Positions 40,399-63,881 of a stretch of 64,000 nt of DNA are shown piece after piece. A program made the translations under genes and the position numbers. How positions within the stretch are numbered: position 1 is the stretch's first letter; every line of letters begins with the position of its first letter. The DNA lies in contig OZ025276.1 of assembly GCA_964019165.1 (NCBI GenBank), forward strand, positions 4,277,840 through 4,341,839, given 5' to 3'. The notes under the pieces are model-generated. The model had not been told where the DNA came from. It saw only the letters and a list, made by a program, of their open reading frames with translations, and searched no databases. This stretch comes from Mastigias papua (lineage: Eukaryota; Cnidaria; Scyphozoa; Rhizostomeae; Mastigiidae).

Positions 40399-42094
40399 TT
40401 TCGAGAAATTTTGTAAAGGAAACGTGTTGCAGAGTCCAGAAAAAGTCACGGCTGCACGGTTCTGAACGGGAGGAAGATTTTGCTTTCTATTTCGTATTTG
40501 AGGAAGGTTTGGTAATTTGCATCAACAATCCAGATTCAGCAAAGTTTCAGTTCATAGGGCATCGACTGTGAAAGGTATAGCCCTTCTACAATTTAAGTTT
40601 CCGAGACATACACAATGCAGAGTTCAAAAACTTCGGCTAGTTTTGAATGTGTTAAAAGAGGAACGTTTGTGATGAAGATTCGATAGCCGGAGGAAGGATG
40701 GAGCTTTTTCTGGACTCTGACGTGTTGGCTCGAGAGCATGTCAGAAAGCTTTTTTTGTCAAGATAGATTTGCTCTCAATGAGTAGTAACAGAGCCTGTAG
40801 GTATATGGGACCGAATGAACCTGCAAATGTTTCATAACAACTGTTCATTTTATAGCCGTGCACAGCAAACATTGTAGAGCTGAGAATAGAAAATAACATG
40901 ATAGCTCCATGAAGCAGATCAATGGTATTCTTGCCAGTGATATGTGATGTACGGTGGCAATTATGTGACATTTGGTGTGTGAATGTGTAGAATAAAGAGG
41001 AGGAAATAAGAAGCAGAATTCACCAGGCAAAAATATTCTTTTCTCTCCCTAACCCCTTTGTGAAACATCAGTTTGAACAATATCTGCTGAACAATTATGT
41101 AGCTTCTGGCAAAGAACCTAATGTACAGTGGCGTAGATAGGAGAACAACAAAAGCCTAATAGGTATATTCCTTTTTCTTTATAGAAGAGAAAAACGACAG
41201 TTTCAGTTTTCCTTCGGTATTTATTGTAGTATTTTTAAATGAAGGGCCCCTTGAAAAACAGCATTTGCTGAAGGGTTACCCTTCTTAAATATATCAAATC
41301 AAAATCAAATCCAATACGATAACAAATTTTCCAACAAAACGGCAGTCTAGCTCTACACCGGGCTTTTCCCCGTACTGACCCCATTCCATCTACACCACTC
41401 CTAATGTAGCAGTATCGTGAGTTTAATATCTGAAGCAGTCAGCTATGAAACTTTATAAAGGAAACGGCTCTTGCCAACAAGAATTATTTTAGGTTCAGCT
41501 ACCTTAGCTAGTTAGTCTTCCAAAATGAGATAAAGCTGATTGCCTGGAGTCTCAGTAAGAGCTGGGGTGTTGGAAAAATATTCAAAACTAATTAACAGGA
41601 GGGGGCGGATATTAGACACCAAAGGGTAGAAGAAGCTAAGGAAATAATAATCATCATAACCAGTATTGAGAATCAAACCTGATTTCGAAAATGGAATTAC
41701 CATAATTATAAAAGTGCCTATGAATGATAGTAGAGGCCCGTAGTCAGTGGGGGCAGGGGGGATGTCCCCAATAATTCATAAAGATTGTATGCTGATCCAA
41801 ATAGTCACTTTGACTCATATCATGATGCGATTCCGTAGCTTGATTTGACAGGCATACATAACACAGGTATATATCTATGGTGTCATCATTAAAATTTGTT
41901 TTTAAGAATTTTTTACAAGGTTGAGAGAGACCGAGAGCATAATTCCAGTTGGTACCGAAGATCCTCGCATATCCTCAGTGAAAGTGCTATCGAAACTGTC
42001 AAAAGTTTCATGCATAGTTCCTTCGTCCAGGTAGATTGTCTGAAACTTAAAATATCAAGGTTTTAACTGCTAATGCACGTTTGAATTATTTGAA
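40399..42094. other. No gene recognised
   Basis: About 1.7 kb without supportable genes. A G-rich stretch 'gtgggggcaggggggatgtcccc' (about 41747-41770) resembles MITE debris. Confidence 0.4.
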
Positions 42095-42375
42095 TAGCAT
42101 TCTTTGAAGATCGGCAATGTTGCATAACGCAAATATCCAGAGTATGTGCTACCGTTCACACCTACGTACTTGAATTATTTTGGGGAGTAGGATTCTTTGA
42201 ACGTTGGCAATATTGCAAAAGATGAATTTTCAGCGTAAGCCCTACACTTTGCACTTACGTACTTGAGTTCTTTTTGGGAAAGTAGCATCCTTTGAAGACT
42301 GGTAATGTGTCATAAGTGCATTTAGCTTAAGTTACACTGCACATCCATGTACATTAAGTTATTTTGGGACGTACT
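42095..42375. repeat. ~93-bp dispersed satellite, cluster 2
   Basis: Three diverged tandem copies: GGCAATGTTGCATAACGCAA (42110), GGCAATATTGCAAAAG (near 42206) and GGTAATGTGTCATAAGTGCA (42300), each followed by a 'cacacctacgtacttgaattattttggg' type stretch. Confidence 0.8.
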
Positions 42376-43149
42376 GTGGTTACAAAATAGCTTGAGCCTG
42401 TATATTATGGACAGGATACTTTTGCAGCCAAAAGTTTCGGACAGGATGTCCCTATTTCGAGCTATACATCTTGATAATTTCGGACAAGGAATTGACTCAG
42501 TGAATTGAGCTGCACTGAGTAAAAATGATAGAATTGACGGACTGAAAACAGACACAGTTAAAATTTTCAATTAGTGTCCCTTTCTCTGTTTTTATCTGGA
42601 TCCTCTGGGGGAAGAGTAATGTAATCTTGAAGCAAAGTGTGTAAGAAAGCTCTTATCTCCATGTTAAGATTGCCATGAAATTTACCAATGGGACAGCTGG
42701 GCTGGCAAAATACACTCTTATTCATATAGGCCTGCACATATTATTCATTATTCATTGTTGGTAATCTAAGTCAGTATTAGAAATACTAATTAGGGGCAAC
42801 TCAAAATATACAAAAACTTCAAAGAAAGCATATCCAACAATGACAAAAAGCGATAACCATGTTCACATTAACTGCATATTCTGTACATGCACATTTCACC
42901 TGCCCAATGTGCATATTGTCTTCGCAACGTGCGAGTGTTGATTCTTGCTTTATACTATTATCAAGGGTCTTCCAAAGAGAAGTTCCCTGAATGATAAAGA
43001 TTATATTCCGTACGATGTTATCTCTGCTTTTGGACTTTTGCAATGCCCTTTGTCTATGATCATATGTTCAGGTACGGTACAGCCAAATAAAAATTGGTGG
43101 CTGAACATAAAAAGTGTGCGCTACAAACAATAAATTGCTTGATAAAGGC
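42376..43149. other. No gene recognised
   Basis: Nothing that I can support. Short AT-rich frames only. Confidence 0.4.
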
Positions 43150-43182
43150 TAAACAAACGACGGGTTGGCAAGAAGTGGGGAG

Positions 43183-43780
43183 CTAAGGCCCCCAACTTTC
43201 CTCAACGGACGCTGTGTTTGAAGTTACACAGAGTTTGTCATAATACCCCCATCCAGTTGATGAATTCATGTTAATCAATGACCTGTATGTTTCACTAATT
43301 ACGTTTTGTACATGATTCACATGGATGGTAAAACTGTTGCTAAGTTCAAATATCGATTGAAGTAGGGAGTCATAATCATTGTGGAGGATCATTTATGCAC
43401 CCTTATTGGCGCGATCTAGCAGCTTGCTTGCAATTTTATTACAGAATAGCTATATCAAAGGAAAATGATTAAAATTTGACAGAATTACCACATTAAAAAT
43501 AGATAATGCTAGTTTGCTTGAAATGTACTTATTCATCCTGGAAAATTCACTTGTATTATTGTTCACTTTTTGGCATAGATTTGAGCCATCCCTAGCAAAT
43601 GCTTGCAATGCTTTTTCTGCTGGTATTTTATTGCCGTTTGTTTTATGTGGAGTCCATTTCGCTCGTTCTTCATTCAACTGGGACTTTTTGGGGGTTTCCT
43701 ACTTTTTCATTACAAGCCTTATGAAATGCTGTTGAACTGATTGGTGCGTGTAGAAAGTGATATTGTTTCGTTCCTTGATA
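43183..43780 (-). mobile_element. LINE RT C-terminal fragment
   Basis: On the minus strand the frames read KIPAEKALQAFARDGSNLCQ and FSRMNKYISSKLALSIFNVV..ILSNFNHFPLIW (43450-43677), then NDYDSLLQSIFELSNSFTIH and VNHVQNVISETYRSLINMNS (43240-43390). These are the same RT C-terminal landmarks as at 33 and 35.6 kb. It is 5'-truncated with stops. Confidence 0.75.
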
Positions 43781-44149
43781 ATACCCGAATATGCCATGCA
43801 AGTACCATTATCTGAAGCAACAAGCAAACATAGGTATAGCAACTGTTAAATGTGAAAGTCCAGTAAATCTGGGTATAAACACTATTTCATACACATAGGA
43901 ACATGTGACAATAGCTGTCTCTTATGGCAATACATGAGGCTTTCATGATTATCTGGTATTGCCAGTGCTACTGATGATCAAACCATTTAGCATTGATGCC
44001 AAGACTCAGAGTAGATAACAACATGCCAAGGGCAATTCTTGGTAGATTAAAAATAATAGCATTCGGACTTTTAAAATTTCGGACAATGTAAAATCTCGTA
44101 CATTATAATTGCTGGACAAACAAGTTGCACGAAATTAAAAGTGTCCGAA
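43781..44149. other. No recognisable feature
   Basis: Nothing supportable. Confidence 0.4.
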
Positions 44150-44335
44150 TTTTTCGCAGTTGATGTAGAATCTTCTGCATACTGCCAATGTTGCATAAGC
44201 GCATTTAATGCAATTGATACACGTCACACCTAGGAAAATTGAAATATCTGGGGAAGTAGCATCCTTTGAAGATTGGCAATGTTGCATACGCACATTTAAC
44301 ATAATTGTTACATATAACATCGATGTGTGATTTTA
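44150..44335. repeat. ~93-bp dispersed satellite, cluster 3
   Basis: Two tandem copies, with GCCAATGTTGCATAAGCGCA at 44185 and GGCAATGTTGCATACGCACA at 44274. It lies just upstream of the first candidate exon of the SET-recombinase gene. Confidence 0.8.
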
Positions 44336-44453
44336 ACCATACGTTCAGTAGGAATAAAGGATATTAGTACACTTTGCCTCTGCGCTATTTTAAGTCACTT
44401 CCTGTAATTTACTATATATCTCGATGACAATGCATTGCTAACTTATTATCAAG

Positions 44454-45298
44454 AAAGATTTGGTAGAGCCAGTGAGAGTGAAGAAAGAGCACGAACCAGA
44501 TCAGAAGAAAGAAGGGATCATACGATAACGGATTCTCAGCAGCAAGGAATTAACGGTACGTTTTATGTGAAATCATTTACTATTGACACTATGAAGTTCC
44601 CCGAGATCATTAGGCTACAGCATGTAGAGAACCAAAGAGAAAATCATTATGTTTTGGAATTCACGCCATTTTATCGGGAAGAGTTTTCTAGCCAGTATTG
44701 GAACTTTCTTAGCTTTCTAGCGATTGCAGCACCAAAACGTACTTAAGAATTCCATAGCAAAATTATTTGAGTTACGATGTCTTGCGTGCAACAGAAAAAG
44801 AAAGTGCAAAAAGCTGTATTTACATCTGCAATAATGGCGAATCAAAGTTAATATAACCTAAACACTCATTTACTTTCATTCTGCTTTCCCATAAAATCTA
44901 ACACATATCATTTACTTTGTGAGACAGTCAGTTTCACCAATATTGAATAGACTGCCGTATTTTGATTTGCTACAAACTTATAAGTTCAGGGTTTCTTCAC
45001 GCTGGTTAATCAAAATAAGTTCACTTATTCTGTCCAATAAAATTGGTGTTAACTTTTTTACGATTTGCCGTTGATCCTCTGACGCCCATGCTTGGGCTAC
45101 ACAATAACTAGATACACAATAATTTTAAATGTAAAGCCGTTCTTCAGTCTTCAGATACTACAAACAGATATAAATCCCCTGTTAAATGTAAGTAAGAGGA
45201 AAATTCTGGTTATCTATTACTAAATAAGAACTGACACTGAAATTATCTCAACGCATTTTCAGGCTATACTTCTTTGGTGGAGAATGAAAAGAACTTTG
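44454..45298 (+). CDS. Candidate upstream micro-exons of the SET-recombinase gene
   Basis: Two small open segments have splice-like borders and phase 1-1. Segment 44454-44555 (102 bp; after TTATCAAG, before GTACGT) encodes a charged stretch RFGRASESEERARTRSEERR followed by DHTITDSQQQGIN. Segment 45263-45298 (36 bp; after CGCATTTTCAG, before GTAAGT) encodes YTSLVENEKNF. They resemble the linker micro-exons further downstream. They do not join in frame to the SET exon if that exon starts at 45504, which needs phase 0. They would join it at a weaker internal acceptor (start 45562, TTGTTAAAG|AT). Either an exon is missing, the weaker site is used, or these segments are not coding. The true start codon was not identified. 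Confidence 0.4.
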
Positions 45299-45503
45299 GT
45301 AAGTTTTTACTTGTAATTCTTTCCTTCTAAATATTCACAAATTGGCAATATGGTCATTTTATAGAATTCATATGTAAAATTTGCGTAATTAAAAAATTGT
45401 GAAGAATGAACACTGTCTACAATATAAATATATTTTTTATAATTATGAGGAGGTTCTTATAAGTGTTTTGTGTGTCAACAGATACTCTTCTTTCTTTCCG
45501 TAG

Positions 45504-46636
45504 AGATCAAGAACTCACAAGGTGGACCCTCTCACGGAGGCCAGAAAATGGCTTGTTAAAGATCAACCTGGACTTGAAGCAAAGTTCATTGACAATTATA
45601 TTGGTAAACTAATCTATCAGTATTTTCTACGTATTTTCTTTAAGTATGATTTTTCTCCCTTGCTCAGCAACTCTTTACTCAGCTATAATAGACCATACAT
45701 TTTTTGTAGGCATGGGTGTTTTTGCAAGTAGAAAATTTTTGAAAAATGATTTTCTACTTCACTATGCCGGTGAATTGGTGGAAAAAGAGGAAGGGGAGGA
45801 AAGGGAAATGTTGTATGGCGATGCACCTCGGAGCTATATTTATTTCTTCTCACATAATGGCAAAGAGCTATGGTGGGTATACATTAACTACTGAGAAGTG
45901 CATCAAATTAGAAAAATACCATAATAGAGAACACCTAGCCTAATATACACCTTTCTACATACAATTTCTTTATTTGTAGGACTTCATTTGATCAAGTCTT
46001 TGTACCAAACATTCCTTACTAGTTCCTTGATTCAACTTCACACTAAGCTCTTAGAAGTTGCACATTTTACATTGATGTTCTGCATTAGTTTCACTAAGTT
46101 TTTAACTGTAGCTAGGAAGCAAAGAAAAACAGAAAGCAAAAGTCAATATATGAAAAGTGGAAATTCAATCAAGAAGGAAAATGCTTGTTCCATTTATATG
46201 GTCTGGTTTAATATAGCATTCACGTATAGGATTCGATATCTTCAAGCATAGTGTTATAGCACATTGAGCTAATTGAAACAGTTTTCAGAGATAAAATTGT
46301 TGGCAATGATAAAAATATTCAAAATTGAAAAAGGCTTTAGGGTTTTTGTCTTTAGTATTAGTAAAAAGCCAATGCCATATATTTTGAGTGAAAGAACAAT
46401 TTGGAGTCGATTGACCACAAAACTAATAGTTTAAGTATATCTTTAGTGTTGATGCAACAGCTGAAAACGGGCGGCTTGGCAGGCTGGTGAACGACTCCCC
46501 CCGTGGAAACTGCCAGATGAAGAAAATTGTTATTAACAAACTGCCTCATCTCAGCTTGTTTGCCACCAAGGATATACGCGTTGGTGATGAGCTGCGCTAT
46601 GACTACGGCGTAGAAGGGTTACCCTGGAGAAAAAAG
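45504..46636 (+). CDS. KMT5A (PR-Set7/SET8)-like SET domain, three exons
   Basis: Exons 45504-45603, 45710-45872 and 46447-46636 (453 nt, 151 residues) give a full SET domain. It starts with GLEAKFIDNYIGMGVFAS, the GxG strand, like the family's GKGRGVFA. Next comes ELVEKEEGEEREMLY. The CVDAT motif is split by the second intron. RLGRLVNDS, GNCQMKK and the LPHLSLFATKDIRVGDEL strand follow, then YDYG with the catalytic-pocket Tyr and PWRKK at the end. KMT5A enzymes monomethylate H4K20, use AdoMet and have no post-SET cysteine cluster, and none is seen here. The NHS motif that lines the AdoMet site in most SET enzymes reads NDS, so activity may be altered. The last donor is weak (AAG|GTTGGT); using GTT G|GTTAAA instead would skip the next exon yet keep phase with 48258. 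Confidence 0.9.
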
Positions 46637-49600
46637 GTTGGTTAAAATATTTATGAATGAAGCTTGATTATAATTCATTACTCTTCAGTCTTGAATAAAC
46701 GACCCCGTGGTTATTAGTTTTTGAACAAATCCACCCAAGGTATCCTTCTGCTAGATCCATTTATTATTCCTGTGTAGGTAATTTGATCGAAAATTAAGTA
46801 ACATGAGAAATCGAGTTTTTCATTTTGTCTACAGTTGAAATGCGTTGTGAAACTTATCCTTAACTATCATACGTAGGGTAAAACTCTCTTCAAAAACAAC
46901 TAAGCAGGATGGTCTTGTTGACCTGGGAAAGGGGGAATTTTTCCGGATATCAGGCCTGTCATGCGTTAAGTATTAACACACTCTATTCTACGGTCAAATA
47001 CCTTTTAAGGAATTTTAAACCAAATAACATTAAAAGTTAGTTGATTGTCTAATCAAACAAGTTTTCAAAAAGGATTTATAACTAAGAAGAGCACTCAAAA
47101 CGTGAATGCAATTGCATGGTATCTTTTGGAAAATGCAAAACAGAGAAAAACTACTTCTTGACATTGGCCTTTGACACTTCAACTTAATAAAAAAATTAAT
47201 AAACAGTGGATCTTAATAAGCTTTGAGGGATGGAAGTCTGAAAATTTAATAGGCATACTAGCCCATGTACTAAACACCCAAGAGTATAGTATATTAAAAT
47301 AAGCTTGTTGTGAAAATAAAAGAACCTATTTTAAGAATCATCGTAGCCTAAATTTCCTTTAAGTGCCATCTACAAAAGAACTCATCTAGATTAAACTGAA
47401 AATTGAATTAAAAAATTGTTATTTTTCACCGTCTTAGGCAGCGCTTCGAGCGAATGGTTCCATTTGGAACCGTACCAAGTGGGTATGTATAGGCCCTGCA
47501 TTTCCACAAGACCTATTTCATTTGGAACTTATGCTTGATAACTGTACAGGAGACAACTGCCTAGCATGTATGCAAGAAAACAATACAGGAGCAGAAGAAG
47601 CGCACCAGTCATTTTTCATTGAGCTTCGTCCACTTCCTATCCGGACCCATCTGGAACAGTTTCGCCCTTTTCCACGAGTACGGTACCAATTGGGACCTAA
47701 TTCGAAAGCGCACCCATTTGGAATCGATTAGCAGTTCCAAATGGAACCGTCCCAAGCAGTTCGGTGAAAAAGAGAGACCTAACAGTACCCTGTGCTCCGG
47801 TTCTACTTGGAACCGTTCCCAGGGAAATGCAGCGATAGTTATACAAGTCTTCAAAAGCCTGCAATTCTCAGGGTCGGAATTAATTGTTGAGTATCTGCTA
47901 AGAAAAAGATGTTTGTTTACTATATAGGTGAATAAAGAAACAATGGAATCTCAATGGGAATGCGCAGAACCATCATTCAGCATAGGTAGGGGATGTATTG
48001 CATGTCTTACACTTTGTGCAATGTCCTAATTACATTCTATTACATCATTAATGCTAAGTAGTCGCTAACTATTTAGACTACATTTAATAACTTTTGGATA
48101 GACAGTGACATTGAATGAAAGCCTGTCCATAGAGTGAAATCGTACAATTCATTTGGTATATTGACACAAGTGTCCACATTTGGCTAGACTGCTTTGCAAG
48201 CATTCATGTTTTTCAAATGAGAGACTTTATGCTTGGTTTTCTATCATTATCTTATAGTGCAATCAATAGAATGCGTAGACTGCATGGCAGAGAACATCAC
48301 AGTAGGTGAGTTGATTGAAATACGTAGGCTATCATTCCTGCGACCCCGCATGAGAAAAGCCTTCATCTCTACAACACAAACTCCGTATTTTCAATGATAA
48401 ACTGAATATTCTGTACTTGGACAGCGAAAGAGGAACAGACAATTGACACATCATCACAAAACCAAGATTTCCATTGCACATACAGAACCTATTATCATCA
48501 CGATCTTAGGCTTTGACAATTTTGTTTCCTTCAATTTTCCTCTCTTATGTACGACAACACCAAAACCTACACTATAGACTCAGCGATACTCAATCACACA
48601 CTTATCATATTTCACTTATCATACCCCTCTTTTATACCTACCTTGGAGGATACGTTGCACACAGTTGATCATACCTCAACGTCTATCGTCTCTCAGAGCT
48701 CTATTATCCTTAATTATAGTTCGAAGGGAGCCATCTGATCTTCCTTCTTAATTCTAACGTAGCTCGTGGCTACTTGAAACATTCTGATTTATCCCTTTTT
48801 ATAGAAGATGAGACAGAGCCAATAAGGAAGCCATCCGTTGATGATGACAGTTGTCTAGTATTGGGGAGCAAATGTACTGATAAACTGAGTACGTTTACCA
48901 ATTGTACACTGCACTCTATATTCTATTTCTCTTCCAGAAAATAGGATCCCATTGTTAAGTCATCATTTTCCGGTTATAACATCATATTCCTAGTCTTCAT
49001 TACTATTCACTCTACTTCTTATTGGCACCGTCCTTTCTTTCCTGGCTTTACATTCTCTCAGACTTAAAGATCTATACACATCTTCACTCTATTTCAAGCG
49101 TATTTGACATGCCATTGACTATAATACTAGCTACTTCATCCTTCTCACTTCTATCAGACTTTATAATGTTTTACGAGGTACACGGTAGATCTTCTTTGTT
49201 ATATCAACAGATATCGTAATTGTTTCAAATACTATTTGTGCAATTTTCCATTGTAGAAGATGAGGGAAAGAAGGTTAAGAAGTCGCAATATATGGACGAA
49301 AGTTGCTGCGCAAAAGAGAGCAATAGTAGTGGTAAGAATCGCAACTTGCACCATTTCTTCATTGTCCCTTCATGTCTATTTCTCTTCCTTGATGTAAAAT
49401 TCTCCCTTTTCTATCTAACAATAACAATGTCTCAACTTCCTTATTTATTCTTGTTTGACACAAATCTCATATTATTGGCTTCTTTGCTCTGTACTTCTAC
49501 ATTCCTAAATCTCCTGCATCTCCATTTCTTTCCCAACTTTTCATACACTCAATGTACAACATAACCCTATTTTATTCCTACCTTGGAGGATACGTTGCAC

Positions 49601-52600
49601 ACAGTTGATCATACCTCAACGTCCATCGTCTCTCAGAGCTCTATTATCCTTAATTATAGTTCGAAGGGAGCCATCTGATCTTCCTTCTTAATTCTAACGT
49701 AGCTCGTGGCTACTTGAAACATTCTGATTTATCCCTTTTTATAGAAGATGAGACAGAGCCAATAAGGAAGCCATCCGTTGATGATGACAGTTGTCTAGTA
49801 TTTGGGAGCAAATGTACTGATAAACTGAGTACGTTTACCAATTGTACACTGCACTCTATATTCTATTTCTCTTCCAGAAAATAGGATCCCATTGTTAAGT
49901 CATCATTTTCCGGTTATAACATCATATTCCTAGTCTTCATTACTATTCACTCTACTTCTTATTGGCACCGTCCTTTCTTTCCTGGCTTTACATTCTCTCA
50001 GACTTAAAGATCTATACACATCTTCACTCTATTTCAAGCGTATTTGACATGCCATTGACTATACTACTAGCTACTTCATCCTTCTCACTTCTATCAGACT
50101 TTGTAATGTTTTACGAGGTACACGGTAGATCTTCTTTGTTATATCAACAGATATCGTAATTGTTTCAAATACTATTTGTGCAATTTTCCATTGTAGAAGA
50201 TGAGGGAAAGAAGGTTAAGAAGTCGCAATATATGGACGAAAGTTGCTGCGCAAAAGAGAGCAATAGTAGTGGTAAGAATCGCAACTTGCACCATTTCTTC
50301 ATTGTCCCTTCATGTCTATTTCTCTTCCTTGATGTAAAATTCTCCCTTTTCTATCTAACAATAACAATGTCTCAACTTCCTTAATTATTCTTGTTTGACA
50401 CAAATCTCATATTATTGGCTTCTTTGCTTTGTACTCTTACATATCGAAATCTCCACTTCTTTCCTAATGTTCAACAGCTTTAAAATATTGCATGCTTCTG
50501 CAGTATACTCTTGAGAGCTGATACTGGGACAAATGGAAGTTTTGCTAAGTCGTGCCACTTTTCTAGACGACGTGAAATTGTCTATGTACCTTCATATATG
50601 GTCCGTGGCTTTGATGGGACCTCAAGTAAGTGAGAATCATGCTTAGTGGGGCCAATTTGTATTTTCCCAGCCGCCTCTTTTCTCCACCTAACTTGGATTG
50701 GGACCAAAATAGTGCATAACAAGTTCTGTAAGTCCAGCACTGATTTGTCTAAGTATGGTTCCCTACACAAACTGAATTGCATGGCTGAGCTTAATAAAAC
50801 TTAGAAAGTGACGGGAAGGGAAAGACAGATGCATACAGGATCATCCGCTTAGGCCGGACTACAACTGTATTTCGTCGAATAACTCCCAGTCATCAAGAAC
50901 TCCGCTTTAATGGGACTTCCGCTAACTAGGGCTGATTTCGGATTCCCAATGGGAGTCCCAGTTATCGGGAGCATACTGTATTCTGTACTTAGCTTTTAGG
51001 ATAATTTACATACAGTTGACCAAGCATCGAGCTCTGTCATCTCTCTAAGTTCTGTCCTAGTTTATTAGCTTTGAAAAGGGACTTCTTTATCATTCTTTAT
51101 CATCATTCCCAAATTCAGAGCATCTTGTTATTTTCTGAACATTCTAATTTAATCATCTTTCATAGAAGATGAGACAGTGCCAATGCGGAAACGACCCTTT
51201 GAGGGTGCCAGTTGGCCAAACATGGAGAGCAACGGCATTGATAAACTTCGACAATTTTGGCATTGAGATTCCCTTTTTAGTCAGTCCTGAAGGCCTGTCA
51301 TCATTATTTCATCAATGGGCATTTAAGTGCATTTGAACCTATTAACTCTCGTAGACTTCAATATCACATATGAAACTTTCGTAGCTTTTCAGGAGTCGAG
51401 CACTATTGTTTTATAAAACACTTCTGTTAAAAAACGAAATGTACCGTCTGTCCATTATATCATAGATCATGTCAATAGTTACAGTAGGATTTTATAGATA
51501 ATACTAGGTAAAACCAAATATTTAAGTAAAATTAGATAATAATGCAACTAAACCCCTATTTGCAAATTACTCAGCTTTTAAAATTTCTATGCTGAACTCT
51601 CCATTTCTACATGGTTATGGAAATCCTTTTACTTGTTGCTTGCATTCTATGATGGTTAAGCTAAATTATCGTATCTGCATCTTTCGGAATATAGACATGG
51701 CTGAAACAAAGCAACATCGTTTTTATGACATCACACCTAGAGCCCTTCTGTTAGAATTTCTGGGAATCACCACAAAATGAGTGCTTCTGTATACATGCTC
51801 CCCCACTTTTTGAGTACTTCCTGGCTTCTCACTTGCATTTGGTGACGGCCAAATTTGTGTTGATTTATTATCTAACTTTTATGTCAAATTGAAAGAACCT
51901 TCTCAACTTTCCATATAGGATTTAAATGTTCTATTAGGAAGTCAGATTGTATTACGCCAGAGAAAAGAAAGACCATAAAAAATCTTTTACGTTTAGTAGG
52001 GAGCATTAATTAAACTTCTTTTGTCATCAAAGAAAGTAACATGTCACAAAAATAGGCAAGCTTTGCTGGTAAATGATAACTTTATCAGCACATGTCAATA
52101 GTTTCCTTTTCTTGTACTTTTATTTTATTTCTTTCGTGTCATTTTGAAACCTGTGGCCCAAACAAACCTTTTGCAGGCTGTGTATGCAATAAAAACTTTA
52201 CTTGAATATTTTAGTTCAAAGAAGCGTCGAATATGGTGATGAAGGTATGAATCTATGCAGTGAAACCAGAATATCATTATGTATAGCTTTCGAGAATTTT
52301 GATAAATATTAGGACTCTTAGATAAATGCTTTCACTTTCCTTAGGCTAGATATTACTTTTGAATTGTCTACAAAGCCGATGATGTTTTATATATATTTGC
52401 TACGTAAATAAAGCATTATTGCATATAATGTCACGTACCTAGCAAGTCATCTCTATAGACATCTTAATGTATTCATGAAAGAAGATTTTGTCTCACTATC
52501 AACCATCTCAAAATTTTAAGCATTGGCTTGCACGTCCAAAGTTCTTAATACTTGCCTGTTATACATTCTCTGCAATCACAAACCATATAATCTTTTCCAA

Positions 52601-55600
52601 AGTATCCTTCAAATAAGAATATTTTATTGCTGTAACTCACTTAAGTGGTTAATAGTATCTTTAAACCCTCTTTTAGTAAGCATCTTATTATTTGAAGATA
52701 CTAATGACGAAGCTAAGAATGACACTGGAGGTAAAAATCCCTTCTATTTGCATGATGAAAACTGGCAAAATATGTCATTACATTTTGTAAACACTCGAAC
52801 AAATCTATTTCGTATTGACCTAAGAAATCAAATTTTAATTTGTTTTATTTACTTAGCAAACGTCAGATGGGACTTGCATGAATGTATTCTTTTAGTAGGA
52901 TATTTTCTTCCTTTTCTTGTCTACAATATGCACTTATGCGTCTTTTATATCATCTAGTTGCCATTTCATTATTCGAAGATAGAAATGAAGAAAATATGAA
53001 GGATATGGAAGGTACAAACTGCTTACATTTTGAACTATAGATATGACACATGAGACTAAATTAGTTGGCAATTTGAACAAATTATGCATCCTGGCAACTT
53101 GTGAAGTGCATTATTTAATTTATTGCATTTATTCATGATATACATTGAGATCAACCCGAGTTGCAATATGATTGGTTTCTCTGTATTCATATTCATATGA
53201 ATACAAGAGGTCTCCAAAACAGATTAACTATGAAATGGAACTAAAGTATGCATCATCTAGAAAATTGCTACATTCTGAAAATCAGCAAGTTGACATATGT
53301 TGAATTAAATTCTGAGTGACCTTGGATTTCACCATATCGCCAATGATTATTCTGAGTGCTCTTTGTTGGGGACTACCAGTTCTCTTAAATATGTAGAGTA
53401 CAATTAGCTTCAAACTACATGAGAACTTTAAGAAGATCTATTGTGCATTATGTTACATTAAAATGAGTGCCAATTCAACTTTTCTAAATACCCTTCTTCT
53501 TTCAAAAGCACCCCGGGCGCTTTTTCAATTGTCATTTCATCAATTTATCATGAAAATGTACAAATAAAAATATCACTATGAGCTTATTTGTACTCGGGTG
53601 GTTCCCAAGAGAATTTATGTCAAATATGGAAAGCACGTTGTAAAATAGAACAATGATCATAATAGTTCAAGAAGTCATGTTAACTCCATTTTGTACTTCT
53701 CATAAAAAATAAGTTGTAATAAGTTGTGCAAGCATTATAGATACCTTAAGACTAATGAAGTTGAGATGATTATCGATGCCAGTTTCACTACAGATTTGGA
53801 AAAATGAGTCTGAGGGATTACTAAGCATATCGAGACCGCTAATGCAGAGAGCTAATATAGTTTTTTTTGAAACATCAGGCTTTTTCGAGGAAATAGGATA
53901 TAAAAGCAATGCATACCCTATTACTCCAGTTCAGGGCGCTGCGCCCTTGCCCTGGACATTCAACGAAGTGGGGAATTTTCAGTAGCAAAAAACAATGAAA
54001 TTTGGCGCAAAGTGGGCAAAGACATAAATGAAAGGCTGATTATCTTAGACCCTGTTGTGATACTCCTCTTCACATTCAAGGTATAATAAGAGAATTCTTA
54101 CAAAGAACAAAGTAACTAGACATTTTACACATAATTTCAAGTTTTGTTACATTGACCATCTGTTCGATAATTCAAGACCGCATGCGTTGTGGTCCCCCAA
54201 AGGGTTGCATAGAGCTAAATTTCTTTCTATTTTTTCAGATGATGGTGCTACATCGAAAAAGAGGCGGATTCAGACGTGCCCTTTGAAAGAATGTGGCCAC
54301 AGAAAAGTTAGCTCCGCTTGTTTTGCAAGGCACCTTTCAAAGTTTCATAAGCTAACCAAGCAAGAAAGACAGAGAATCCAGTTCATACATAAAACAAGAA
54401 AAACGTACACATGGAAGGCGGAAAGACCTGCAGCCAAGTATAAGGACTACCATGTGCAAAGGAAATGTCCTGTCCACAAATGTGGTGCAGTTGTGAAGAG
54501 GTTGAAGCCGCATCTTACTGGTAAGTTCCACAACATAACGGACCCGGAACTTCTAAAGTCGCTAATGTTGAAGTGGAAAGGGACAGTACCACAACCAAAG
54601 AAAGGAGTCCCGCATTTTATCCTGTCAAATCCATTTCCCGAATCAGACTCAGGATCTGAATTTCACGAAACAAACCATGAAAGTGATGACCTGGTGGATT
54701 CAGATACCAACAGCTCTTCCAATGATGAAGATGTGGAGTCAGCTAGTTCTAGATCCCTCATAGATGAAGTCAAGGATTTGCAGACTCCACACATAATGAA
54801 CAATTATACTGTAGATGCTATCCTGGATAGTTTCTATCAGTACCTGATTTCAGCAGATTGTGGCAACAAGGATCAGCGTTCATCGCGTCAACATCAATCC
54901 CAGGTACGTGCTATACTCTGTGCCATCGATGAAACAATGGACATTGCCTCATTGACCAATTGCAAGCTAATAAGAGAAAGGTTTCTGAAGCTTCATTGCA
55001 GCAGAAAAAAGCTTGGACCTCGCACAATAAAATCATACCTGCAGAGCCTGAACCATATCTATAATTTCTTTTTGTCTGAGTTCACCGCTCTTTTCGAGAA
55101 TGAACTGCTAACGCAGTGTCAGATAAAAGTACGTAACTGGATGAAAAGCTTTCAAAGAGAGTGCAGCATGCAAAAGCACTTGAAAGATGACTACGAGGAG
55201 GAAACCATACTCACTGCTGAAAAGATACGGAAGTTTGAACAGAGTGAGGTATGTAGAGAGGCCATTCTCCTTCTTGGGAAGCTAGCAGAGACAAACAGAG
55301 CTGCTATTAATTTGTCTCAGCAGTCTTTTACAAATATACGAGACTTCATCATGAGTGAACTTCTCATAAATAATGCTCATCGCTCAGGAGTGCTGGCTAA
55401 CGTAACGTACAGTGAGTTTCTGAATCACAGAATGAAGGACGGCTTATATATAATCAAAGTTCACCGACACAAAACGTTGGGAAGCCATGGGCCAGCCCGA
55501 ATCATTTTGAACGAAACAGTATTCCAGTGGCTGGAAACGTATGTTACCAGAGTTCGGCCATTAATAAATTGTCTTCCAGCAGCTAGTGACAGACTATTCC

Positions 55601-57236
55601 TCACTTGGAATGGAGGGGTCTTAACTTCTGGTGAGTTACTTTTCATCTTAACTTAAATTTTAGCTGCCTAAATTTGAATGAATGAATGAATGAGTGAATA
55701 AATGAATGAATGAATGAATATAGAGAATATAGAATAAGCAAAAGAATATAAAGAGCGTCAGAATCTTTGCGTTAAAACCTGTAGACAGGACAAACATTAT
55801 TTACTATAGACTAAAGCGTGAAAATGGCATGGAATAACTGAAAATTCCTTCAGGGTATGCCCAGGTCATGATTCTTACTACATTTTAAGAAGCACCATTG
55901 TCACGATTAAATTACTTCACTGGATTTTTAGGAACTTGACATTCACTTGAAAATTGCAGGTATGGTTAGCGGAGCAATCAATTCGATTTGGCAGAAATCC
56001 GGTACTGTTTGCCACCGTGTAAACGCTACAAAGTTTAGAAGAGCAGCGGTGACTGCAACTAGAGAAAAGGGAAAAGAGCTATCTCAAGCGGCGGCTGACT
56101 TGATGGGGCACATGAAAGCAACGGCAGATAAAGTGTATCACGTAAGAAGGAGAGAAGACAATGCGCTACAAGCTGCTGCAGAAATGGGTACACTTATGAG
56201 AAAGAAAGAAAAAAAAGAACATGAAATTGTCTCCGATACGATGCCTGATTCAATTGATGCTGCGGCGAAACGGAAAAGATGGAGTAAAGAGGAGAATGAG
56301 GCAATCCAAAAAGTTTTTGCAGGTTAATTTGAATTAATTTGAATTCCAGCTTTGGAATTGGCAAATGACTTTATCACCTTAAAAATAGATACCAACTGTT
56401 AGTGATCTGGCCTGTTGAGATTCTTGGTAGATGTCTAGTTTGTATGCTAAGCCTAATTGATGCATTGAATTGCCATTCCAGCTTCTAGGTGTTTTATGCT
56501 TATCATAAATTATCAAAACAAGCACGCTTGGGCGCAGAAGAGAGTGTGACAAGGGGGCTGCAGGCCCCTAGTTGGACAGTAAACCATGTCACTCAGCAAT
56601 TTTTCTCAGAAAAGCAACAGCAAATTATATTCATACTTCTCAAATCTCTTTGTTACATCTGGATTGCAAAGGTTTGAAAAATGAGACTGGAGTAGGATGT
56701 TTGTTGGGAATGATTTTTTTGCCATTTCACTTTTAATTTCTGGTTGACATTTCAAGATCTTTCATATTTTTGCAGACGACATCCGTTCCAAAGATGTCAC
56801 CATTGAGGATGTAAGAAGAAAATCAATAAATCATCCTTTGCTTGCTGATATCCCGGCTAAAAAAATCATAGATAAGGTGCGAGAATTTTTCAAAAGGGAT
56901 GAAGCTACACTTCTAACAGAGATCCCTGAGGAAAAATTGCAAGATAAAGTTGAGAGAATGTTTCATATTGAGGAGGCTTCTCAGTCCCAAGCAGCAGAGG
57001 TAGCAACTATTTCAAATACGACTTCAAACAAAGGAATTTTTTCTGAACAGCAAGCGCAGCAGTTGAGAAACCTTTGTTCACATATTATAAATGATGGCAG
57101 GGTTCATACAAGTCGAATACAGGAGGCCCTCAATAGGCAAGCAAGTGGTCAGTATTTATTGGAAACTTTTGAACTAGATCAAATTAGAAATAGACTCAAG
57201 TATGAAAGAATGAAATATGTTAAGAGTAAAAAATGA
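45504..57236 (+). CDS. SET methyltransferase - zinc finger - tyrosine recombinase - Myb-like fusion gene
   Basis: Fifteen inferred exons join without stop: 45504-45603, 45710-45872, 46447-46636, 47928-47985, 48258-48305, 48805-48888, 49257-49331, 49745-49828, 50197-50271, 52215-52244, 52698-52730, 52979-53011, 54239-55630, 55960-56322, 56776-57236. Their sum is 3,189 nt, 1,062 codons plus TGA. From exon four onward every junction is phase 1. Domain order is a KMT5A-like SET domain, a low-complexity acidic linker, two C2H2-like fingers, a Crypton-like tyrosine recombinase and a Myb/SANT-like C-terminal region. A nuclear chromatin or DNA-rearranging role is likely from the domains. The biochemical activity is inference. 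An AATAAA lies at 57764-57769. Alternatives are two separate adjacent genes (a SET gene and a recombinase gene); the consistent phases across the micro-exons argue against this. The 5' end is incomplete. Confidence 0.72.
46637..47455. other. Intron sequence, nothing recognised
   Basis: This lies between the SET exons and the first linker exon. No exon or repeat is supported before the motif cluster at 47456. Confidence 0.45.
47456..47830. repeat. Cluster of a self-complementary TTCCATTTGGAA motif
   Basis: A perfect palindrome GGTTCCATTTGGAACC (47456-47471) is followed by several variants: CATTTGGAAC near 47519, CATCTGGAAC near 47648, CATTTGGAAT near 47711, GTTCCAAATGGAACCGTCCC near 47732 and GGTTCTACTTGGAACCGTTC near 47799. 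The layout resembles a small non-autonomous element with subterminal repeats inside the intron. Open frames across it are not credible genes. Confidence 0.5.
47928..48305 (+). CDS. First linker exons after the SET domain
   Basis: Exon 47928-47985 (58 bp, phase 0 to 1; after CTATATAG, before GTAGGG) reads VNKETMESQWECAEPSFSI. Exon 48258-48305 (48 bp, phase 1-1; after CTTATAG, before GTGAGT) reads VQSIECVDCMAENITV. Both keep the reading frame from the SET exon to the later micro-exons. The peptides are acidic, contain Cys, and match nothing I know. Splice-site quality is good, but no independent evidence of expression exists here. Confidence 0.55.
48632..50468. repeat. 940-bp tandem duplication carrying two micro-exons
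   Basis: The block 48632-49571 is repeated at 49572 to about 50468 with an offset of exactly 940 bp and very few differences over about 870 bp. Examples are ATAATACTAG/ATACTACTAG near 49120/50060 and TTGGGG/TTTGGG near 48861/49801. Each copy holds an 84-bp and a 75-bp exon with intact splice sites, so the duplication adds 53 codons to the linker in frame. Copies diverge after the 'ttggcttctttgct' stretch. Confidence 0.95.
48805..50271 (+). CDS. Duplicated pair of linker micro-exons (two copies)
   Basis: Exons 48805-48888 and 49745-49828 (84 bp, after TTTTTATAG, before GTACGT) read DETEPIRKPSVDDDSCLVLG then SKCTDKL; the second copy has F for L in SCLVFG. Exons 49257-49331 and 50197-50271 (75 bp, after CCATTGTAG, before GTAAGA) read DEGKKVKKSQYMDESCCAKE then SNSSG. 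All four are phase 1-1, so adding or removing any of them preserves frame. The segments are acidic and Lys/Ser-rich and look like a flexible linker. Alternative inclusion is plausible but unproven. Confidence 0.65.
50501..50978. mobile_element. ~480-bp Tc1/mariner (pogo/Tigger)-type MITE in an intron
   Basis: The left end CAGTATACTCTTGAGAGCTG..TACTGGGAC and inverted right end CAGTATGCTCCCGATAACTG..GGACTCCC share the CAGTAT..CTGGGAC pattern of pogo/Tigger-type ends. TA follows the right end; the left flank reads TG, so the TA duplication is not perfect. No transposase remains. It separates the duplicated micro-exons from a third exon-like copy. Confidence 0.55.
51166..51249 (+). pseudogene. 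Third copy of the 84-bp micro-exon, donor lost
   Basis: After CTTTCATAG comes DETVPMRKRPFEGASWPNME then SNGIDKL, the same length (84 bp) and clearly homologous to the exons at 48805 and 49745. The position of the splice donor reads CTTCGACAAT instead of CTGAGTACGT. Without a GT the exon cannot be spliced normally and reading on meets a stop. It is an older, now dead, copy of the same exon. Confidence 0.75.
51250..52214. other. Intron sequence, nothing recognised
   Basis: AT-rich. A 63-codon open frame at 51589-51780 lacks recognised features and splice context. Confidence 0.45.
52215..53011 (+). CDS. Three very small linker exons
   Basis: Exon 52215-52244 (30 bp; after ATATTTTAG, before GTATGA) reads VQRSVEYGDE. 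Exon 52698-52730 (33 bp; after TATTTGAAG, before GTAAAA) reads DTNDEAKNDTG. Exon 52979-53011 (33 bp; after ATTCGAAG, before GTACAA) reads DRNEENMKDME. All are phase 1-1 and resemble one another (D/E-rich, TTGAAG/TCGAAG acceptors), so they are probably old duplicates. The acceptors of the last two have weak pyrimidine tracts, which lowers confidence. Between them lie ordinary AT-rich intron stretches. Confidence 0.5.
53012..54238. other. Intron sequence with a short GC-rich palindrome
   Basis: No exon is supported. A palindrome AGGGCGCTGCGCCCT (53934-53948) in a GC-rich island may be MITE debris. Confidence 0.45.
54239..55630 (+). CDS. Zinc-finger and tyrosine recombinase exon
   Basis: The acceptor TATTTTTTCAG precedes 54239. 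The ATG further upstream at 54187 lies in the intron. Residues about 14-36 form a C2H2-like finger (CPLKEC, C-x4-C-x12-H-x4-H) and about 85-108 a second (CPVHKC, C-x4-C-x9-H-x5-H). An acidic Ser spacer follows. Then comes a helical core-binding region (ILDSFYQYLISADCGNKDQR.., TIKSYLQSLNHIYNF) and the start of the catalytic domain. That part has box I Arg in NNAHRSGVLANVTYSEF (Arg codon 55381-55383) and the beta-hairpin Lys in HRHKTLGSHGPARI (Lys codon 55471-55473). It ends RLFLTWNGGVLTSG at a GTGAGT donor. Tyrosine recombinases cut and rejoin DNA through a covalent Tyr-DNA link; Cryptons and related elements use such enzymes. Confidence 0.88.
55960..57236 (+). CDS. Recombinase catalytic C-terminus and Myb/SANT-like region, two exons
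   Basis: Exon 55960-56322 (after AAATTGCAG, before GTTAAT) carries the rest of the recombinase: ATKFRRAAVTATRE with the box II Arg (56037-56039), DLMGHMKATADKVYHVRRRE with the box III-like His (56109-56111) and the presumed nucleophile Tyr (56136-56138). The usual His three residues before the box II Arg is Thr here. The exon ends with KRKRWSKEENEAIQKVF, the first helix of a Myb/SANT-like domain. Exon 56776-57236 (after TTTTTGCAG) continues this with DVTIEDVRRKSINHPLLADI and KKIIDKVREFF, then a Gln/Ala-rich stretch. It closes with IRNRLKYERMKYVKSKK and TGA. The decayed paralogue at 7.4-9.7 kb has the same two parts without introns. Confidence 0.85.
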
Positions 57237-58639
57237 GCTCTATTCTATGAAGCAAATGCAAGCTCTATAAGACACATAAAGACCCCGTTTCCGAGATCAC
57301 GTGGTGTAGAAGTACACTGAGAGCTTGGATGGCTCTTCTCGTATACTTATTATTACAAGAAAGTGAGAACTTGATCCACCTAGCAAGATACGAAATTGAG
57401 GTCACTTTCCGAATGAAGAGACTGTGCCTCCTTAGATCACAGCTGGGAGTCCGTGTCCTTCCCCTAGCCTCATTTTCTATGCCACTAAGGACATTTTATA
57501 TAACTCGCAGCCTGAAGTGTTTTCCAAACTAAGAGTGTTTAAGAATTTGCAGCTTATAAGTTTCTATGGTTTCAGACCCTATTCAAATCTATTCCAGAAA
57601 AACTTTAGAATAATAATGCTTTGCTTGGATGCATTTTGCATGAGAAATTGCTAAGCAAGCTTTAACAAATGAAATTAACTCACTGGGGCCTAATTAAACC
57701 ATCACATACAGAAGATGGATGAAAACGGTATCATATTTCAATTGAATCAAAACTTTAAGAAAAAATAAATTGACCTACATACTTGTTGAATACTAGCTTT
57801 TGATGACAAATCTTTTGGTAGAAAGTTGCTATACAAAATTGTACCTTAGAAAGTTGTTGAACTTTATTTCCTATTTGCGGGATCCTACTGACTGATGTAG
57901 GAAATGTTCAAAAGTTTAAGCAGTCTGATTTTATCTCTGCAATGCCTTGACCCAGATAATGATTGCAAAGTGCGGTCTACTTATATGTACATGGTTTCAC
58001 ATTAAAGACTTTTTCAATATCCATGTAAAACAAGCCATTAACAGTCAAAAAATGTGATTTTCAGTTATCACTCACATATCAACATATAGTGAGAGCTTAG
58101 CATCTGCTTTATGCTTCTGCTATTCAAGATTTTCTCTCCTTTACCCATAATCTTTAAACGTTGATTTGATGTAGCGTATTATTAGAAATAGTCATCATCG
58201 AACTCGAGTTCAAATGCTGGTTTTCAAAAATTTTTGCATGTTAAGCCCAAGTGGTCGCAAACAGTTTACATCGACATCCTTTGACCAGTATAACTCCCCT
58301 TTGGTTGATGTCAAGGTTGCTATGACGTCTACCAAATGAATTCACTAGTAAAGAAAGCTCTATATGACATCGTTTTTATCTTGAAATATAAGAACGTTAA
58401 TAAAAAAACATTTTAAGCTGTAGGTGTTACAAGTATGAGATATTTTCAGTCTTTTAACCAAACTATCACTTATGAGCTTGTTACGTGAAGATTGTGAAAG
58501 AACATACATGAATTTGATACAGCTGCTGATAAAGCCGAATGCTCCTGGAACGTAGAAAACATCCATAAGAAAATGCAACATGGCATTGTGTTTTAAGTTA
58601 AATTTCAATCACGGACTTTTGATCTGAGTTTATTCCATT
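57237..58639. other. 3' flank of the recombinase gene, no further gene seen
   Basis: A consensus AATAAA (57764-57769) could serve polyadenylation of the SET-recombinase transcript. Otherwise AT-rich and unassigned. Confidence 0.45.
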
Positions 58640-59031
58640 GTACTGCTTCACTATAGCCCGAAAAAGCGGGAACATTCTTTTAGCATACTGCAAGCTTTTC
58701 GTCAGACACTGGTTAGAATATGAAACGTTGTCTGAGTATTAAGCCAGATGCGGATACTAGTGATATGATAAATCATGCGTCTATTTGGCACTATGACTGA
58801 CCGATTAGCACCTATGCACCATTGTCTACTTGAAGATTCCAAGTGAGAAAATGAACTCTGTTTGCTTACACAAGTCTGGGCTTTGAACTTTAGTGTAAAC
58901 TGATTCCAAAACATTTACATGATCGTCCATTCATTTATGTTTCATATTCTGACGAGTGTCGGACGAGAAAAGCTGGCATTATGCTAAAAGAATGTTCCCG
59001 CATTTTCGTGTTATAATGAAGTTCTGTAGTG
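58640..59031. mobile_element. ~390-bp MITE/foldback with ~85-bp inverted ends
   Basis: The left arm (58640 to about 58728) and inverted right arm (about 58940-59031) share GCGGGAACATTCTTTTAGCA and AGAATATGAAAC. Short mismatched stretches separate these blocks. No coding capacity. Confidence 0.8.
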
Positions 59032-59550
59032 CCAACAGATTTTTCAGATTGTACTGCTCTTCAGTAAATTCTGAGTGCATATTGTAAAAGTATGGAACTC
59101 AGGATATACTTGCTATTAATTTCTTCTGAAATTTTTTAGTAGTTGAGTAGCATTAAGAGTGTTTTTTAATAGTATTTTATACTTAGATAGCCTGTGTCGC
59201 CTGTATTTGTTATTGCTTTTTCTCATCATCTTCAACATAAATCTGCAAGCTTTTCTTCCATTCATTTCATTCTTGCAACAAATCAAGGGAGTGCTCTAAA
59301 GCTACGTGTTTATTGGTCTGTTCGAAACATGTGCATCTGGAACCACTAATTTGAAAGGATTAGTTTGGCAGGAAATCAACAAAATCTGTCGTACCGATTC
59401 TAAAGCTTCCGACGGATCACATATGCAAAATCATATTGTTCTCATACACTTTGCTCAAAGGAATGATGGTCAGGTGAATCGAGGGTAATGGGAGTTATCC
59501 CTATCAGCAACCACATATGCTCATTATTTCTTTATGGAAGTAATAGCCCG
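59032..59550. other. No recognisable feature
   Basis: Nothing supportable. Confidence 0.4.
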
Positions 59551-59949
59551 TACTCTTAGGTTCCTAATAAACGGGGAGGGGGTCATAATAGTAGGGGGTT
59601 GGAAAATTTTCGAAAATTTAATAAACGGGGGGTGTTATTAAACGGGGGGTCGGAATTTCAAAAACAAGAGAAACTAATAAGGACAGTTTTTAAGATAACC
59701 CAAGAATAAGAAATATAAGCCAAATACAGCATGAAAATCTATGTATATACTGTAAGCATAAAAAATATCTCTGATCTATTAACGGAGCACACAAAGGTAA
59801 ACAATTTGCAAAAGTTGAAGAAAAAAAGGACAACCTCATCTCTCAAATATTTGAAAATTAATAAACGGGGGGTCCCAATAAGGTTTGGGGGTCGTAAAAA
59901 TCGGAAAATTAATAAGCGTCCCGGGACGTTTATTAGGAACCTAAGAGTA
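59551..59949. mobile_element. ~400-bp MITE with perfect 23-bp inverted ends and TA flanks
   Basis: 59551-59573 and 59927-59949 are exact reverse complements (outer bases TACTCTTAGGTTCC). If the outer TA is the target duplication, the element is CTCTTAGG...CCTAAGAG flanked by TA, as for Tc1/mariner-type MITEs. The interior repeats TTAATAAACGGGGGG several times. An open frame through it is a by-product. Confidence 0.88.
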
Positions 59950-60384
59950 GATGCACAGCGTTTAGCATTTAGCTACACATATGGTGTAAGGTTGATATAT
60001 ATGAGATGGTTCGACTTAACACTCTTGATGCCAGAAGCATAAGCTACAATCAATTTAGCCAACGTGAATGATTGTTTAAGCATATTTGTTAGTTCACCTT
60101 TTGCTAATCACCCTCTAAGTCGGCATTGATTTCTAATCACTTTTGCAAATGACGTTTTAACATGGTTGGAGATTAAAGAAATATTTGAAAATGGCCGAAG
60201 AAAACGTATTTTCAGAGGATTGATCCACTTAGGGCAGATGCTTATTAAAAAGTATGGGTCTATTGGCTCTTAGAAATTCTATTGCGGGAGCTTATGCAAG
60301 GGGTTGCAATATGGTTGCACTAAGAAGTTTATCGTACAGATATAACTGCTAAGTCTTCAATCCACCTTTTGCTTATTTCTAGGA
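59950..60384. other. No recognisable feature
   Basis: Nothing supportable. Confidence 0.4.
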
Positions 60385-60838
60385 CTTACCGTAAATCCTC
60401 GAAACAGCCCCCGGGGGGCTGATTTGCAAAAATGAATTTTTGTGTGGGAGCTTATTCGAGGGGAGGGCGTATTTCAAAGTTTGGCATTTTCCTGAAAAGT
60501 TGACATAAAAAGCGACATCATTTTCTCAATAAATTAAATTTTGAGCTTCTAATTACAGACGCTGATATCGTTAAAAAGAGTTACACAGTGTTGTGTGAAG
60601 ATATAGAAAAAATTATAATGTTTTCATTATCATGAAAGTCGCGTTTCTCTTTGCTTTTTTGCCTCCATTCAAAGGACGTGATACGGTACAGCTACTGTCC
60701 TGTGAGGGCTTCTTGAAATAGGATATTGTTCGACAATTATGCTTCCCTTGAATAAGCCCCCATGGGGGCCTATTCGAGGGAGGCTTATTTACAAAAATGA
60801 TTTTTGTAGGTGGGGGCTTATTCGGGAATTTATGGTAG
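60385..60838. mobile_element. ~450-bp MITE with AATAAGCCCCC-type inverted ends
   Basis: The left end CTTACCGTAAATCCTCGAAA..CAGCCCCC matches the inverted right end (CTACCATAAATTCCCGAATA..AGCCCCC). A second inverted layer lies inside ('ggagcttattcgagggg' against 'ccctcgaataggcccc', and CAAAAATGAATTTTTGT). No transposase. The design resembles the widespread 'GCTTATTCGAGG' MITEs of invertebrates, in my recollection. Confidence 0.8.
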
Positions 60839-61429
60839 TTATGGATAGGCGTTCTGAAAGGCTACAGGTAGCCGCTATAGCTTCATCTACATGTGAATCA
60901 ATTTGTAGCTGATAGTGCAATGTCAGAGCTAAAGCTAATGATTGTTAGCCTGAGGAGAATTGACAGCTTCCTGACTTCTCCCCTTCTCCTCGTTAGAAAA
61001 TATACCTGTTTCATAAATATCCAATGTTGTCTAATGTCTAAATTGCCTATACCTCAATAACTTAAAAACATATCACGAACAACTCAGCCTCAAAAGTTTG
61101 GAAATATTAAAAACAGCCAGCCTGAGCCTCAATTTTACTGATTCTTATAAAAAATATCGTTCATAGCTCAAGCTGCCTTGAGGTAGAAGAGAGCAGGTAT
61201 TGCTCAAGATCAAATACGGGCTGCCTTTCATCTGTATTGTATTTCTTGGAAGAAACCTGTGCCATTTCAAGGTTATGCTGTGAGATAGTGAGATTTGATC
61301 GAAATCCTGAGTCTCTCGGCCAAAACGGGAGAGTTGAAAAGTCTCGTAGGAAGCAAGCATAGACTTTGGGAAGCATTGAATAGCCGTCTACTTGGACATT
61401 TTACACATGAAGATAGCTCCTCCACGCAT
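60839..61429. other. No recognisable feature
   Basis: Nothing supportable. Confidence 0.4.
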
Positions 61430-62200: not shown

Positions 62201-62619
62201 CGCTGTACATGCAACTGGCCCCTTCTCCATCTATCAGACAAATTCACTCCCGCACATAGATGATGTTTCTGTCCCCGTCTGCAGAAGACAGCCCTATCTT
62301 TCAAATACCTCTCAGCATCCCTCTTGTAACATTATTTTAAGCAAAGTGTTCGATATGGCTGTGCTTTGTAATCATCAAGTACAACCTTGCAATAAATGGA
62401 TGGGTAGATACCTGGCTTCACAGCCACCTCCATGCAAGTACGTCATTAATTATGATAACCTCAGTATAATCAACTTTAACGCGTGAAATCAAACAACAGA
62501 GCCGAGAAAATGATGCTACTTTTGCAAAGAATATATGAGAGCTTCATAAAGGATGCAAATATAGCAACTGCTATATGCCATACAAGCTGTGAGCCCGAGC
62601 CTGAGCCCAAGCCCTCACT
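62201..62619. other. No recognisable feature
   Basis: Nothing supportable. Position 62590-62618 is a GAGCCC/GAGCCT-like run leading into the telomere-type tract. Confidence 0.4.
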
Positions 62620-62659
62620 CTAACCTTAACCCTAACCCTAACTCTAAACCTAAACCTAC
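62620..62659. repeat. Interstitial telomere-like (CCCTAA)n tract
   Basis: About six to seven units of CTAACC / CCCTAA with variants (CTAACCTTAACCCTAACCCT, then AACTCTAAACCTAAACC). The TTAGGG type is the usual animal telomere repeat. The tract is degenerate, so it is interstitial. Confidence 0.85.

Positions 62660-63843: not shown

Positions 63844-63881
<38 letters not shown>

Follow-up and report, generated by a model that had tools for sequence, protein, structure and literature searches.

A gene joining a KMT5A-like SET domain to a tyrosine recombinase in a probable giant transposon of the scyphozoan Mastigias papua

The window analysed here is a stretch of 64,000 nucleotides from Mastigias papua (Scyphozoa; GenBank assembly GCA_964019165.1, contig OZ025276.1, positions 4,277,840 to 4,341,839 of the forward strand), and positions given without a contig handle refer to it. 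It contains a candidate mobile element of about 47 kb and, within it, a gene in which a SET domain of the KMT5A type is joined to a tyrosine recombinase (YR). Sixteen plus-strand exons between 45284 and 57236 join in frame to encode a predicted protein of 1,081 amino acids, with AG and GT flanking every intron in the window sequence. The predicted protein reads, in order, as a KMT5A-type SET domain, a linker, two C2H2-like fingers, the YR and a helical end. A preliminary description of this DNA had given 15 exons beginning at 45504; the in-frame joining stands, and the start of the gene does not, since an ATG exon at 45284-45298 precedes it. The exons are as follows.

45284..45298, plus strand: exon 1, with the ATG start (MKRTL); placed by frame and splice donor only, and identical in the gene copy on another chromosome (C6).
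45504-45603, 45710-45872 and 46447-46636, plus strand: exons 2-4, KMT5A-like SET domain (KMT5A in PDB, 7.6e-31; PF00856, 3.6e-17).
47928-47985, 48258-48305, 48805-48888, 49257-49331 and 49745-49828, plus strand: exons 5-9, acidic linker, predicted from phase and AG/GT.
50197-50271, 52215-52244, 52677-52730 and 52958-53011, plus strand: exons 10-13, acidic linker, predicted from phase and AG/GT.
54239..55630, plus strand: exon 14, encoding a pair of C2H2-like fingers, the core-binding region and the first two catalytic residues, Arg (55381) and Lys (55471).
55960..56322, plus strand: exon 15, encoding the other three catalytic residues, Arg (56037), His (56109) and Tyr (56136).
56776..57236, plus strand: exon 16, encoding a helical C-terminal region that resembles a homeodomain, then the stop codon.

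The open, in-frame spliced frame bears out the earlier claim that a SET domain (with the motifs CVDAT, RLGRL and YDYG) and a YR lie in one gene, and at the level of sequence the two are one gene. The alternative is that a SET gene and a YR gene are separate and adjacent in the element, with the linker exons an artefact of how the sequence was read. The linker exons are short and of low complexity, a coral finger-YR protein has no SET match, and the joined gene is known from genomic sequence alone. However, the reading frame stays open across all 16 exons, each intron has its AG/GT, and two predicted proteins, P0013 and P0009, hold SET and YR together, the SET being partial in P0009 and P0013 being fused to a GST domain; two separate genes are thus unlikely. 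In the C6 copy of the gene, the splice dinucleotides are intact at all mapped exons. A 940-bp tandem duplication (48620-50454) doubles two linker exons in the window and is single in the C6 copy.

Residues 1-157 make up the SET domain, for which the 14 best PDB matches are all KMT5A/SETD8 (7.6e-31 to 4.1e-29), the next chain following at 4.1e-14. The window SET is homologous to KMT5A/SETD8 and carries the three motifs named above, but it differs in being fused to a YR and in having NDS in place of NHS. NHS is the cofactor motif of KMT5A; VNDS is read in the window, in most family copies read and in the Rhopilema esculentum models P0006 and P0007.

The YR carries its catalytic Arg, Lys, Arg, His and Tyr in that order, as had been claimed; all five codons were read directly and aligned with those of relatives. 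The HxxR box is a usual YR motif, and its first residue is Thr in the window YR. No significant match to known YRs was obtained for the window protein alone. Profile matches came from relatives only (P0001, with PF00589 at 1.7e-6 and XerD at 4.4e-9), and a structure model of the relative P0003 made with 13 sequences (mean pLDDT 55.7) matched XerA at E 1.8e-4, superseding a poor model from five relatives (mean pLDDT 49). Searching PDB sequences with an alignment of the YR returned nothing useful (best E 0.15). The exon 16 region aligns over its full length with coral relatives, its structure matches again coming from P0003.

The gene lies toward the right end of a stretch whose limits recur elsewhere in the genome. 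Its boundaries are as follows.

16693..16772, plus strand: (GA)40 tract at the left junction, read as target-derived microsatellite.
16773..63843, plus strand: full length of the mobile element, 47,071 bp from one flanking tract to the other.
16774..16800, plus strand: left terminal arm CAATATTTGAGGGTACATTTGCAACAC, then a TTTGCAACA minisatellite; start common to six left ends, and inverted repeat of the right end.
63814..63844, plus strand: right terminal arm GTGTTGCAAATTTACCAGCCTTTGAATATTG, where five right ends stop.
63844..63879, plus strand: (GA)18 tract at the right junction, as read in the sequence.

Evidence for mobility came first from a copy on C6: window positions 16692-63843 align with C6:8147335-8193602 at ~99% identity, the collinear blocks ranging from 99.0 to 99.4%. 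On the left, homology begins inside the (GA)n tract, and the C6 flank beyond has no DNA match to the element. On the right, both flanks open with a minisatellite like that of the left end, which carries the alignment 222 bp beyond the tract; on C6, this flank forms the left part of a further element, ~82% identical, in which the LINE insertions found in the window copy are absent. This second C6 element (C6:8193603-8202000; L032, L034) stands head to tail with the first, with one (GA)13 tract in common.

Additional evidence came from probing the genome with the two ends. A 1-kb left-end probe gave 10 matches, six of them covering more than 900 bases (window, two on C6, two on C8, one on C21), and a right-end probe gave seven, five of them long; the weak short matches (4/10 left, 2/7 right) are excluded from the counts of ends. 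Five of the six long left ends directly follow (GA)n of 26 to 272 nt and one follows (GGTA/GATA)n, the tracts at the other left ends differing in length or type from that of the window; one of the six reads CAGTATTTG. All five long right ends stop at ...TTTGAATATTG then AGAGA, with the variant AATAGTG in one (C13:2236320). No pairwise BLAST match was found among five left flanks, and three of five right flanks are unrelated, the other two sharing only the left-end-like repeat at their start. The same end points are therefore seen in copies at unrelated sites, as expected of a mobile element. Six GA/TC tracts of at least 8 units occur in 240,200 bases chosen around elements (not a random sample), and all six are at element ends. 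The ends form an inverted repeat, with 13-bp arms matching at 10 of 13 positions, a level reached by 50 of 200,000 shuffles; the predicted joined ends would set two arms around AGAGAG, the spacer length being inferred, close to the described form of a YR site.

Copies of the recombinase were then counted across the genome, where the match counts of the family searches are lower bounds (for the query P0008, a relative of the YR, 58 of 110 candidates were scored). Exon 14 has at least 48 matches, and P0008 at least 65 from a different YR family (family 2). Merging gave at least 26 loci of family 1 and at least 35 of family 2. A SET on the same strand within 15 kb upstream accompanies 9/26 and 13/35 of these (22/61 in total), and an opposite-strand SET accompanies none in either family. 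One family-1 locus and no family-2 locus has a SET downstream; at that locus (C21:1494834) the SET is also upstream of the next YR locus. Among near-full-length family-1 loci, six of seven have a SET. In genomic sequence, these data show that SET and YR have been kept together in two divergent families.

Family 2 is also informative about the target. Its C3 and C18 copies share 99.8-99.95% identity across the 27.6 kb compared, and its homology spans at least 42 kb (C3:7919001-7961589) with the right end reached; the left end was not located, the DNA search there returning tangled repeats. The right end is followed by (CA)n at C3 (two copies) and C21, and by (TACA)n at C18. Since near-identical copies end in different repeats, the repeat is part of the target and not of the element. 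A fifth exact match to the right-end 18-mer, on C14, was not counted; it has other sequence upstream and no microsatellite after it. The near-identical SET copies L051, L052 and L053 (C3, C18, C21) derive from a recent family-2 burst.

The favoured interpretation, held with a probability of about 0.82, is that of a giant YR DNA transposon with simple repeats as its targets, whose recombinase gene opens with a histone methyltransferase domain of the KMT5A type. The preliminary description had posed a choice between a mobile element and a domesticated host factor, and the element ends, the near-identical copy on another chromosome and the multi-copy families clearly favour the former. A host cluster of SET-YR genes could instead have grown by tandem or segmental duplication and unequal crossing over between simple repeats, with no transposition at all. 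Family members do cluster on C13, C18 and C21, C6 has a head-to-tail pair of elements whose left parts are ~82% identical, and simple repeats favour ectopic recombination. Such growth is nonetheless improbable given identical end points at unrelated flanks on different chromosomes, the inverted terminal arms, an intact YR, and the different types of repeat that follow family-2 copies more than 99.7% identical.

As to the class of the proposed transposon, the earlier label “Crypton-like” was not borne out: DUF3504, the Crypton domain, is absent among Pfam matches of the window YR up to E 10 and of relatives up to 0.1, and the element is ~47 kb long with inverted-repeat ends. Cryptons are likewise animal DNA transposons moved by a YR, and the joined ends predicted here resemble the YR site described in PMC3212892, which consists of 11-13 bp inverted repeats 6-8 bp apart. 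The present element differs from Cryptons in its size, in the unmatched DUF3504 and in the added SET domain. In Starships, the captain gene encodes DUF3435 and lies at the 5' end of the element. Starships, as generally described, are also giant, YR-moved, multi-copy elements. However, they are fungal, whereas here DUF3435 is not among the Pfam matches of the window YR, there is no clear cargo, and the YR gene lies toward the right end, the fusion gene starting 28.5 kb from the left end of the element. On the tests made, the element cannot be called either a Crypton or a Starship.

Evidence that the SET domain has been maintained came from substitution patterns. In three comparisons between subfamilies, dS and dN for SET were 0.67 and 0.175, 1.88 and 0.27, and 1.73 and 0.23 (dN/dS ~0.26, 0.14 and 0.13), and on these sequence comparisons SET is under purifying selection between subfamilies. 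For the YR of the window copy against copies of three subfamilies, silent sites are saturated and dN is 0.41-0.45. Very recent pairs have no silent excess, with 1 silent and 3 replacement changes for the W/C6A YR pair and 2.5 silent and 18.5 replacement for C13n/C18n. Selection on recent pairs is relaxed, a pattern usual for a mobile gene, with constraint in active lineages and decay after insertion; constraint between subfamilies together with decay in recent copies therefore indicates that SET stayed functional alongside the element. Values of dN/dS for C21:114787 (L007) were discarded because that copy is frameshifted. Compared with C8:10191945 and C8:10223901, window 16773-57236 is much closer in its left end and SET (~86% in DNA; SET dS 0.67) than in its YR, where silent sites are saturated, as if halves had been swapped between elements.

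The constraint on SET could also be taken to mean that the fusion gene serves the host, for example in the chromatin of the early embryo, with the mobile copies as by-products. KMT5A-like genes of Hydractinia, most of them with an N-terminal SET, are activated in early embryos according to the main text of PMC10368294. Domestication is nevertheless very improbable. A transposon gene is equally expected to show selection between subfamilies, and the copies are numerous and dispersed; the very recent ones lack a silent-site excess and C21:114787 is frameshifted.

Parallels exist with the telomere-repeat nimaviruses of crustaceans, whose YR, in the available text of PMC10871703, has a C2H2 zinc-binding and a SAM-like domain and targets (TAACC)n. 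Both are large animal elements with a YR that includes a C2H2 zinc-binding domain, and both insert into simple repeats; for a YR that targets such repeats, nimaviruses are the nearest precedent in function. The same habit would be expected if the present element were a large DNA virus that had become endogenous and used a YR as its integrase. However, nimaviruses carry viral gene sets of hundreds of kb (300-360 kb in pemoniviruses), their targets are (TAACC)n and not the GA or CA repeats seen here, and a SET domain goes unmentioned in the same account. Outside the fusion gene, 10 of 11 non-LINE frames of at least 100 amino acids have no significant Pfam match, spliced genes not having been searched for, and a viral origin is the least probable of the alternatives, a very slim prospect.

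Relatives in other animals bear on how widespread such transposons may be. Two Rhopilema esculentum (Scyphozoa) models have a SET 50% identical to that of the window, then fingers and the first part of the YR, and stop before the catalytic part. In the sea cucumber Holothuria leucospilota (Echinodermata), P0013 has, in the order seen in the window, a SET, fingers and a YR that retains the catalytic residues, and it closes with a similar C-terminal region; in the model, a GST domain is fused to it as well; the eukprot model P0009 joins a partial SET to a YR. SET and YR thus co-occur in single predicted proteins of relatives, as the preliminary description required. For relatives from coral, beetle and snail, no SET match was obtained.

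These relatives may extend to genes already described. As given in the main text of a 2023 study (PMC10368294), KMT5A-like genes number up to 65 in Hydractinia, 61 in sea urchin and 24 in Hydra. In Hydractinia and sea urchin the majority have an N-terminal SET, and the C-terminal ends are similar between the two. Like the present family, these genes are numerous and divergent, with a KMT5A-like SET at the N terminus and a long C-terminal part, and on that description they may be its relatives. That main text treats them as host methyltransferases and does not contain the words “integrase”, “recombinase” or “Crypton”. Among listings and abstract beginnings in the open-access literature, no paper describing a SET-YR fusion was found. 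The earlier statement that no well-described system has this architecture holds to that extent, and is weakened in that the 2023 Hydractinia genes may be the same thing. A broader proposal is about evenly balanced between being right and wrong: that there is a class of giant YR transposons, in at least Cnidaria and Echinodermata, with a fused H4K20-type methyltransferase and microsatellite targets selected by repeat type, whose own chromatin mark would aid insertion or escape from silencing, and that such elements account for the large, unexplained sets of KMT5A-like genes that Hydractinia, Hydra and sea urchin turn on at genome activation.

A mechanism for the proposed transposon can be outlined. 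The recombinase would excise or copy the element via a circle, in which the joined ends would form inverted arms around AGAGAG, the predicted junction reading ...TTTGAATATTG-AGAGAG-CAATATTTGA... Strand exchange at AGAGAG would then insert the element into a matching purine microsatellite. At the element or at its target, the SET domain might act as a methyltransferase on a histone (by homology, on H4K20) or on some other protein, which could keep a fresh insertion transcribed, tie insertion to the state of the cell cycle, or open the target.

The spliced gene, the fixed ends, the copies, the target repeats, the co-occurrence of SET and YR and the constraint are all seen directly in the genome. 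Several observations weigh against the interpretation. Transposition is deduced from occupied sites, and the joined product from genomic DNA as noted above. Taken by itself, the C6 copy may be a 47-kb segmental duplication ending at tracts by chance. Methyltransferase activity is uncertain because NHS reads NDS. Of the 61 YR loci, 39 have no SET match within 15 kb upstream, many of them fragments with stops; among the 39 is an intact 509-amino-acid YR frame at 7333, for which the 7.4 kb of upstream sequence within the window lacks a SET match. At C21:4396991, C13:1003317 and C13:2236320, the sources of three of the five right ends, the copies carry YR fragments and no SET was detected, and neither YR nor SET was detected near the left end at C8:15679426.

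If the interpretation is correct, a histone-writing and a DNA-joining enzyme would be united in one mobile gene, and because ends and targets are defined, the idea of a transposon carrying its own chromatin writer becomes a testable question. It would offer a simple explanation for expansions of KMT5A-like genes in marine invertebrates previously read as host chromatin regulators, and would add an animal case, outside crustacean viruses, of giant YR elements choosing simple repeats.

The window has several further features. Rfam and tRNA scans across it gave no matches. To the left of the element, a second, diverged YR gene (7333-9665; 34% identical) has fingers and a similar end and belongs to a neighbouring element. 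Two LINE-like retrotransposons on the minus strand, nested in the element, occupy 21793-28266 (RVT_1 at 4.7e-31 and 1e-10) and are absent from the diverged C6 element. An inverted repeat of 604 bp, 99% matched, flanks an AT-rich repeat at 37086-38596, and a small repeat with 23-bp perfect inverted ends lies directly to the right of the fusion gene, at 59551-59949.

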